From Corynebacterium hansenii (GTDB lineage Bacteria; Actinomycetota; Actinomycetes; Mycobacteriales; Mycobacteriaceae), in contig NZ_CP047211.1 of assembly GCF_030408795.1 (NCBI RefSeq), positions 2,294,001 to 2,358,000 on the forward strand: a DNA stretch of 64,000 nt, read 5' to 3'. A program made the translations under genes and the position numbers. Below are positions 36,324-37,930 of the stretch, in pieces. The notes beneath the pieces were generated by a model. The model was not told the origin of the DNA, did not search any database, and saw nothing but the letters and a program-made list of their open reading frames with translations. Numbering within the stretch: the first letter of the stretch is position 1; each line of letters starts with the position of its first letter.

Positions 36324-36394
36324 TCCCCCGTGGTGTAATGGCAACACTCCTGATTTTGGTTCAGGCATTTCAGGTTCGAGTCCTGGCGGGGGAG
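36324..36394 (+). tRNA. tRNA-Gln (anticodon UUG)
   Basis: Acceptor TCCCCCG/CGGGGGA with discriminator G and then CA; anticodon arm CCTGA-TTTTGGT-TCAGG with anticodon TTG; T arm CAGG-TTCGAGT-CCTG. A possible -10 (TAATCT) lies at 36229-36234. The gene is intact and is followed by prophage DNA, so its 3' half is the likely attachment core. Confidence 0.93.
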
Positions 36395-36405
36395 CAGCGA
36401 GACCA

Positions 36406-36445
36406 CCCCCACTGACCTGCTTCAACGCAGGCCAGCGGGGGTTTT
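36406..36445 (+). terminator. terminator behind tRNA-Gln
   Basis: CCCCCACTGACCTGC pairs with GCAGGCCAGCGGGGG (two A-C mismatches) around a 6-nt loop, followed by TTTT. Confidence 0.75.
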
Positions 36446-36467
36446 CTCATTTTCGGGCGGGGGTATC

Positions 36468-36521
36468 TTTACGCGGCTTTACGCCTGATTCTGCGTCTAT
36501 ATGAGCCAAAAGTGAGCCAAA
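36468..36521. other. candidate integrase arm-type sites near attL
   Basis: Two direct repeat pairs lie just inside the prophage: TTTACGC at 36468-36474 and 36478-36484 (10 bp apart) and TGAGCCAAA at 36502-36510 and 36513-36521 (11 bp apart). Helical spacing and position behind the tRNA fit arm-type binding sites of a tyrosine integrase. The integrase itself is outside the window. Confidence 0.4.
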
Positions 36522-36600
36522 CGCGAGACAGGCAATGCCTTACTTTTGCATTCAGCATTGAGCGCTGCGGCCATGCGGAGAGGACACTCCCTGCTGCCGC

Positions 36601-36606
36601 TAATCT
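36601..36606 (+). promoter_or_regulatory. -10 element of the RelA/SpoT-domain gene
   Basis: TAATCT ends six bases before ATG 36613; no SD is present, so the gene is probably leaderless and expressed from the prophage by host sigma factor. Confidence 0.55.
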
Positions 36607-36612
36607 CGATAC

Positions 36613-37503
36613 ATGCTCGGTGAAACGTTCCCCCACTCGAACAATCAGCTAAAGAAGCTCGGGAAAGCCCTCAAGTACGACTCCCCCCACGACGTTCAGC
36701 TCTACCAAGAGTGGATGACGTGGAATGCTGAGCTACTCGCCACGGTATGGCTTGAACTTGACGACTGCCTAGAGAGCTTCGTCGACAGCGAGCCTCCACC
36801 CCCCTTCGAGGCGTTCCCCCCTCTGACCAAGGATTCTTTCGAGCTGTCCGGTCGAGTGAAGACCGAAGACACCACCAGGGAGAAGCTCCGCCGCAACACG
36901 ACTTCCCTGAACGGCATCCAGGACATCGTCGGCCTCCGCATCGACGCGCCGATGAGACTCTCCCAACAGTCACGATTGGCAGATCACATCGCCGGGACGC
37001 TCCAGGCCAAAGGCGCGTCCGTCGCACAGAGAGATCTTCGCGATGGCAGTCACTGCGGCTACCGAGCGGTGCACCTTCACGCCACGTTTCCAGCTGGGCG
37101 CACAGAGATCCAGTTGCGAACTACGTACCAATCAACTTGGGCAAACTTGTACGAAGTTCTGGGTGACGTCGTCGGGCGAGAAATACGCTACAAACAGGAG
37201 TTTTCCCCTGAAGTGGAACGAGCGCATGGCCCGATCGTTCGAAAGTTTTGGCGCGCCTCCGAAGCCCTCCACAAGTCAGACACAGAATGGAATGACTGGG
37301 TTTCAAGCTGCGAAGAGCTTATGCTTGACCTCCACAAGGTTCCCGAGCCGTACCCCGATGACTTGCAAGCCGAGATTGACAAGATCAAGGAAAGGCTGAC
37401 GACGGCCCACGAAAGCCGTGAGGAGGCGCGCCAGCGCCTCAGCCGGTTGGCAGACACAGTTCGCCGCCTGCCGCCCGCGAACCGACAGGAAGGAGTTGTC
37501 TGA
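36613..37503 (+). CDS. RelA/SpoT synthetase-domain protein, candidate prophage toxic alarmone synthetase
   Basis: A 296-residue stand-alone RelA/SpoT nucleotidyltransferase. Seen: 'SGRVKTEDTTREKLRRN' (R81, K83), 'GIQDIVGLRI' (D104), 'GYRAVHLHA' (G149-Y150-R151, H154) and 'TEIQLRTTYQSTWANLYE' (E165, Q167, R169, W176). The usual 'EH' near the end of that motif is replaced by 'LYE'. N-terminal ~70 residues are helical; the C-terminal ~50 look like a coiled coil. No hydrolase, TGS or ACT domain. Such proteins make (p)ppGpp, (p)ppApp or pyrophosphorylate tRNA (toxSAS, CapRel). It is plus strand, against the lytic genes, in lower-GC DNA beside attL, and followed at once by a small gene. Which product it makes cannot be told. 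Confidence 0.8.
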   Translation: MLGETFPHSNNQLKKLGKALKYDSPHDVQLYQEWMTWNAELLATVWLELDDCLESFVDSEPPPPFEAFPPLTKDSFELSGRVKTEDTTREKLRRNTTSLNGIQDIVGLRIDAPMRLSQQSRLADHIAGTLQAKGASVAQRDLRDGSHCGYRAVHLHATFPAGRTEIQLRTTYQSTWANLYEVLGDVVGREIRYKQEFSPEVERAHGPIVRKFWRASEALHKSDTEWNDWVSSCEELMLDLHKVPEPYPDDLQAEIDKIKERLTTAHESREEARQRLSRLADTVRRLPPANRQEGVV

Positions 37504-37504
37504 A

Positions 37505-37723
37505 ATGCCAGGATTTTTGATCGAGTACAACCGACTCACCGGAGCCGTGGACTGCACCCAGTTCCCGAGCATCGTCGAGGCAACCATCCAGCGCATGATG
37601 CGCGACGTCGCCCGCGTGGATTCCAACGTCGAGATTGTGGCTGTTACCAGCCCCAACCGCGAGTCTCTTGAGCACTCTCACTCCCGATACTTCGCGCGGC
37701 GGGAAGACCTCACGCTCGCGTAA
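37505..37723 (+). CDS. 72-residue partner of the RelA/SpoT-domain protein
   Basis: Begins one base after the RelA/SpoT stop (TGAAATG), so it is translationally coupled. The protein reads as one small alpha/beta domain: 'MPGFLIEYNRLTGAVDCTQF', a helix ('EATIQRMMRDVARVD'), then 'NVEIVAVTSPNRESLEHSHS' and 'RYFARREDL'. There are no membrane segments and no recognised DNA-binding motif. Its position suits an antitoxin, activator or specificity subunit for the synthetase. I do not recognise a named family; antitoxin function is a hypothesis. Confidence 0.72.
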   Translation: MPGFLIEYNRLTGAVDCTQFPSIVEATIQRMMRDVARVDSNVEIVAVTSPNRESLEHSHSRYFARREDLTLA

Positions 37724-37732
37724 CCCGCTTAT

Positions 37733-37775
37733 GAAGCAACCCCCGCACCAGACGGTGAGGGGGTTGCTTCTTTTT
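37733..37775 (+). terminator. strong terminator closing the RelA/SpoT unit
   Basis: GAAGCAACCCCC/GGGGGTTGCTTC, perfect 12-bp stem, 14-nt loop, then TTTTT. Confidence 0.85.
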
Positions 37776-37930
37776 AGTTAGTTCGGCCCGCGCGGGAGCG
37801 GGGGATGCTCAACCAGCGCGGGCCTGGCCGCCGGGCACCACCGGGGGGGTGGGGTGCTTCGCGGCGGTTACGCAGACGATAACCCGCCCGCGGCTACCCC
37901 GCTCGCCGAGCCGCCCCGCAAACGCGAAAA

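Follow-up and report, generated by a model that had tools for sequence, protein, structure and literature searches.

A predicted PhRel:ATphRel toxin-antitoxin pair beside the attL site of a Corynebacterium hansenii prophage

Introduction

The locus considered here consists of two adjacent genes in a 64,000-nucleotide stretch of Corynebacterium hansenii DNA (contig NZ_CP047211.1, positions 2,294,001 to 2,358,000 of the forward strand; the whole of this stretch is called the window below). Its closest described relatives are toxSAS toxin-antitoxin systems. The gp29/gp30 pair of mycobacteriophage Phrann, in which gp30 (ATphRel) is the cognate antitoxin of gp29 (PhRel), confers resistance to several unrelated phages, Tweety among them (PMC9262239). 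The two halves of CapRel, a fused toxSAS of phage SJ46, are stated to be related to PhRel and ATphRel (PMC9712102). In CapRel and in ATfaRel2, the antitoxin of FaRel2, the ATP site is filled by a YXXY motif folded as a 3-10 helix (PMC9712102, PMC11782079); in ATfaRel2 the motif spans residues 51-54 (PMC11782079). Phage-triggered release and tRNA pyrophosphorylation have been described for relatives of the pair (PMC9262239, PMC8118318, PMC11559606, PMC11782079, PMC9712102).

An initial annotation, made from the letters of the window, described the locus as a prophage-borne toxin of the toxSAS type coupled to a new-looking small protein, together a candidate for an anti-phage toxin-antitoxin unit and possibly an undescribed version. 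No description of the locus, or of the association with TOTE and Wadjet genes reported below, was found in the titles and abstract openings of the literature searched.

Results

The pair is homologous to gp29 and gp30 of phage Phrann

The two open reading frames (ORFs) lie where the initial annotation had placed them and encode proteins of 296 and 72 amino acids (aa). The larger is 35-37% identical to Phrann gp29 (102/273 aligned residues; tblastn E = 1e-26 over 86% of the query), so that gp29 was the right comparison to have drawn. The smaller is 45-46% identical to gp30 (32/71; tblastn E = 1e-9 over 93%) and scores 134 against it, while 500 shuffled versions of the protein reach 12 at most. 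It also matches PHROG 22117 (phrog_22117, E = 3.2e-23). The view of the partner as a new, unrecognised protein is thus rejected. We conclude from these similarities that the pair is a PhRel:ATphRel-type toxin-antitoxin system, a further predicted member of a published prophage-borne toxSAS defence system; it is not an undescribed system, because the partner is homologous to the cognate antitoxin of gp29. The two genes are referred to below as toxin and antitoxin. The features of the locus, in window coordinates, are as follows.

36375-36395, plus strand: attL core, the 3'-terminal 21 bp of tRNA-Gln, repeated exactly at attR (tRNA call, repeat and integrase)
36601-36606, within the element 36601-36612, plus strand: putative -10-like hexamer TAATCT (read directly from the sequence)
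36613-37503, plus strand: toxin gene, PhRel-type toxSAS of 296 aa, synthetase domain followed by C-terminal helices (ORF, Pfam, PHROG, gp29 identity, model)
37505-37723, plus strand: antitoxin gene, ATphRel-type small protein of 72 aa (ORF, gp30 identity, phrog_22117, model)
37733-37775, plus strand: hairpin resembling an intrinsic terminator, followed by a T-run (fold energy)

The likeness to Phrann extends to the order of the genes, toxin then antitoxin, and to their location in a temperate phage close to holin and lysin genes. The loci differ in host genus and in orientation: in Phrann the pair is co-oriented with the lysis genes, while here it is adjacent to attL and convergent to them. 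The C-terminal helical parts of gp29 also diverge from those of the window toxin. Among 50,697 phage records, eight matched the toxin (E <= 0.01) and five the antitoxin (E <= 0.1), and all five with an antitoxin match also had the toxin: Phrann (twice), WST1, Corynebacterium phage IME1320_01 and a phage recorded for Pasteurella. The characterised member among the matching phages is Phrann, whose gp29 and gp30 genes are adjacent. Neither protein had a relative in viral_contigs when searched as a single sequence. With the present locus, the known reach of the PhRel:ATphRel branch of prophage defence takes in a Corynebacterium prophage.

Two of the phage records deserve a remark. In the one recorded for Pasteurella multocida (KY203335.1), the pair is present with the synthetase ORF unannotated, and the gene order is like that of IME1320_01; the host label may deserve checking. 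In Mycobacterium phage Squirty, gp29 resembles the Phrann toxin over the first part only and then diverges, and no family antitoxin was found behind it at the threshold used.

CapRel shares the catalytic domain with the window toxin and is a weak structural match of the window antitoxin; the differences are that toxin and antitoxin are separate genes here and that the antitoxin lacks YXXY. The toxin match to FaRel2 is weaker than that to CapRel, and the YXXY of ATfaRel2 contrasts with HxRYF in the window protein. The small alarmone synthetases RelP and RelQ carry an EH motif and are alike in catalytic fold, but the window toxin has YE in place of EH, is followed by an antitoxin gene and scores far below the YjbM cut-off.

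The toxin has an intact catalytic core

The toxin consists of a single synthetase domain (Pfam RelA_SpoT, residues 80-178, E = 6.2e-8, above the gathering score), with no HD hydrolase domain among its Pfam matches. It also matches PHROG 4773 (phrog_4773) at 2.4e-18 and the PADLOC candidate PDC-S33 at 1.1e-13. Across 19 aligned synthetases, R81, K83, K91, R94, D104, R109 and G149-Y150-R151 are invariant, as are E165, Q167, R169, W176 and E181, and the same catalytic set remains invariant in a wider set of 53. The 19-row alignment (A1) includes the window toxin and a second copy from the same genome; broken copies were excluded from both sets, A1 omitting the broken or partial L012, L018 and L025 as well as the more distant L037, L052 and L053. 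Alignments A3 and A5 used 34/63 proteins. The initial annotation had singled out D104, E165 and the GYR loop and had asked whether an alignment would show key residues to be lacking; none is. It had also pointed to a replacement of the 'EH' motif, which we find as 'YE' (E181), a change shared with Phrann gp29. With catalytic roles (donor-site Arg, Asp, G-loop Tyr, Glu) assigned by analogy, the catalytic core is, as far as sequence can tell, intact, and nothing speaks for a dead enzyme.

The predicted structure of the toxin (predicted local distance difference test score, pLDDT, 92.4) is closest to CapRel and RelQ, which were tied in a second comparison. The synthetase profile fitted the housekeeping synthetase YjbM (2.8e-18) and CapRel (6.3e-18) about equally; the curated YjbM equivalog model gave 15.5 bits, far short of its cut-off of 320. 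Direct sequence comparison with PDB entries gave weak matches.

The antitoxin carries HxRYF in place of YXXY

The antitoxin had no match in Pfam or PADLOC, chance-level matches only in NCBIfam, and no usable match when its profile was compared with PDB by sequence; a protein database search using the antitoxin by itself found just two close relatives besides the query. Its model (pLDDT 90.1) has a beta-beta-alpha-beta order, possibly a fold of the pseudo-zinc-finger type. CapRel and ATfaRel2 rank first among structures compared with it, but with weak scores and in ties with unrelated folds.

The YXXY motif (Y..Y) was present in none of 29 aligned antitoxin-family sequences, Phrann gp30 included, and in none of 77 places at which the family was found in the genus Corynebacterium. 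HxRYF was present in all 29 and in 74 of the 77. The 29-sequence alignment (A2) omits L012 and L032-L036. The end points of the superposition on ATfaRel2 (model residue 64, chain residue 56) would bring H59 and Y62 close to Y51 and Y54, a placement read from the ends of the superposed range and not from a residue alignment. The use of HxRYF by this branch, compared with YXXY in the antitoxins of CapRel and FaRel2, points to how this branch may be held off. Together with the presence of two copies in one genome and of stand-alone relatives beside defence genes, it is among the details that give the locus its interest.

Transcription and translation signals

The antitoxin ATG begins two bases past the last base of the toxin TGA. 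The two ORFs are in different frames with a stop between them, unlike the single polypeptide of CapRel. The antitoxin gene is preceded by a clear Shine-Dalgarno sequence (AGGAAGGAG) located within the end of the toxin gene; none was seen before the synthetase gene. The initial annotation had proposed a leaderless promoter. TAATCT ends 6 nt ahead of the synthetase ATG and the element 36601-36612 is identical at the second copy in the genome, but a sigma-70 scan of 36400-37900 returned 0 sites. A leaderless start from a TAATCT-type promoter is thus plausible only, on the strength of the sequence. The strong terminator, also proposed, is supported by the fold of the hairpin after the antitoxin gene (-32.5 kcal/mol; z -7.13; 0/200 shuffles as good), though a simple terminator pattern scan of the locus did not list it.

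The pair lies inside attL of a 39.4-kb prophage and has a second copy

A tRNA-Gln gene occupies 36324-36395, and its final 21 bases form the attL core. An exact copy of these 21 bp (attR) is present at 75792-75812 in window numbering, beyond the window end (L071:11792-11812), directly behind the gene of a 371-aa phage integrase (L071:10589-11704; Pfam Phage_integrase 2.1e-20). Because the 21-bp tRNA-Gln repeat recurs beside an integrase gene, we conclude that the window contains part of a prophage of about 39.4 kb integrated in tRNA-Gln, with the pair as the first evident unit inside attL. The holin and M23/GH25 lysin genes are on the minus strand, pointing against the pair. The pair has a G+C content of 59.0%, compared with 68.8% for window positions 37801-64000; 0.6% of 629 windows of equal length were lower. 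The adjacency to attL, the orientation against the lytic genes and the lower G+C content had all been noted in the initial annotation, and hold.

The same genome has a second copy of the pair at 1,958,441-1,959,551 (L026, G000:C1:1956500-1961500), whose toxin and antitoxin are 95% and 96% identical to those of the window. The toxin genes differ by 36 synonymous and 15 non-synonymous codons, the antitoxin genes by 1 synonymous and 3 non-synonymous codons. A different phage holin gene lies about 1.3 kb from the second copy, which was assigned to a prophage on account of this gene; no att site was found for it as exact repeats of at least 15 bases in about 43 kb searched downstream. Another genome of the species (G201) had no antitoxin-profile match at E 1e-8, and the unit is therefore accessory.

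The toxin is nearly always followed by the antitoxin

A profile scan of a species-level genome collection revealed 54 toxin-family loci. Each of them was reached via the pattern WANx[YF]Ex[ALM][AG]D, and the count therefore covers no forms more distant than this. Except for one in an Acidobacteriaceae bin, the loci were in Actinobacteria (53/54; Corynebacterium, Microbacterium, Rhodococcus, Bifidobacterium and others). An antitoxin gene was located at most 300 bases downstream of the toxin, or fused to it, in 53 of the 54, the exception being cut by a contig end. The gaps were 108 and 259 bases in two loci; in the other unfused ones the antitoxin was no more than 30 bases from the end of the toxin ORF or overlapped it. 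In Microbacterium esteraromaticum (L106) a single ORF holds both domains, the N-terminal synthetase part being encoded in a different frame, and in 5 of the 54 loci the toxin is split into more than one matching piece. The toxin gene thus almost never travels without its antitoxin.

From the antitoxin side the rule of constant pairing is rejected. The family was found at the 77 places in 59 of 242 Corynebacterium genomes (E <= 1e-8), with a synthetase-like ORF or fragment beside 46 and none beside 31. At 40 of the 46 paired places the synthetase piece is 200 aa or longer, and at three (L005, L007, L162) the only piece is shorter than 100 aa. This count drew on 30 further fetched stretches and took as paired L005, with a 45-aa remnant, and L007, at a contig end; L001, which is the same place as L135, stays without a partner. 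A previous count, made with lower sensitivity on 151 relatives, had given 17/31, and its L035 and L036 are not among the 77 places. The survey proposed in the initial annotation, whether the small gene always follows such synthetases, is therefore answered differently from the two sides. Unrelated partners of the small protein, which that annotation would have held against its reading, are a matter for part of the wider family only (the 31 unpaired places, nine of them by TOTE or Wadjet genes).

Proposed mechanism and alternatives

The explanation that best covers the whole, and one we hold to be highly probable, is that the PhRel:ATphRel pair is an accessory (moron-like) defence unit inside attL, acting as follows. 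The antitoxin would bind the synthetase, its conserved C-terminal HxRYF segment keeping ATP from the donor site. On infection by another phage, a phage product would pull the antitoxin away or keep it away, and the freed synthetase would move pyrophosphate from ATP to the 3'-CCA ends of tRNA. Translation would then stop and the infection abort, so that the prophage-carrying population would survive. Toxicity, neutralisation, the tRNA substrate, the trigger and the defence role are each expected by analogy with published relatives.

The same toxin-antitoxin architecture could serve a toxin that makes a nucleotide alarmone, either (pp)pApp, as FaRel and Tas1 do, or (p)ppGpp, and leaves tRNA unmodified. 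Several observations speak for this reading: the profile matches to YjbM and CapRel are about equal, RelQ and CapRel tie as nearest structures of the model, and the substrate varies among toxSAS subfamilies (PMC11559606). However, the nearest characterised relative, PhRel of Phrann, belongs to the translation-targeting group and binds tRNA (PMC11782079, PMC11559606), and FaRel is neutralised by a Tis1-like domain (PMC11782079), while the partner in this locus is a gp30 homologue. We therefore regard an alarmone product as quite improbable. A prophage-stabilising (addiction) role without any part in defence is also rather unlikely. In its favour, type II toxin-antitoxin pairs could in general stabilise in this way, and the genome has the pair at two sites, each close to a phage holin gene; yet several unrelated phages are warded off by the closest studied pair (PMC9262239), and a phage capsid protein is the trigger of the related CapRel (PMC9712102). 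That the toxin is a housekeeping-like small alarmone synthetase of the RelP/RelQ type with a chance neighbour is hardly credible, given its score with the YjbM equivalog model, the recurrence of the same neighbour in all but one of the 54 loci and the match of this neighbour to gp30.

Stand-alone antitoxin-family genes

Nine of the 31 stand-alone antitoxin genes adjoin TOTE-helicase or Wadjet genes (six a helicase gene and five jetA, two loci having both). Each of the six (L027, L034, L168, L169, L173, L180) adjoins and follows a gene for a ResIII-type helicase. In L168 and L180, both tested and both with long ORFs, Pfam AEP-TOTE confirmed TOTE AEP-helicases; in L027 the ORF is cut by the end of the stretch and its helicase part only was seen; the neighbours in L034, L169 and L173 were assigned by blastp clustering. 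The five genes ahead of jetA (DUF3375) belong to the same sub-family and are in L028, L163, L169, L173 and L175. JetA was identified by Pfam and PADLOC in L169, by Pfam in L028 and by clustering in the other three. A jetB-family gene is also present in four of the five loci, where the stretch reaches, as in Wadjet loci.

A tree of the antitoxins required 17 changes between the paired and unpaired states, at least seven of them forced by well supported branches, and a single origin of the stand-alone genes is not supported. As few changes were needed in 6 of 500 label shuffles, so that the label is somewhat clustered. The tree is built on few columns and has long branches; only sequences with H.[RK]Y[FL] were kept, duplicates were merged, and two of the 77 places (L034, L177) were omitted. 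The ordinary reading, in which the toxin was lost repeatedly while the antitoxin stayed, is likely. More tentatively, and with a good deal less confidence, the ATphRel family may be a portable module not tied to synthetases. It might then serve unrelated defence proteins in common, as a sensor of phage or as a brake on effectors, and would block synthetases by an HxxY variant of YXXY. The stand-alone genes near defence genes offer a lead on such service to other defence systems.

At another of the 31 places (L185:600-2408, G002:C54), the antitoxin gene has a strong Shine-Dalgarno sequence and follows a 502-aa ORF at a distance of 20 bases; this ORF matches the ApeA N-terminal domain below threshold (20.4 bits; cut-off 25.5). 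A neighbouring 907-aa gene looks, from an NPPY motif seen by eye, like a methyltransferase gene.
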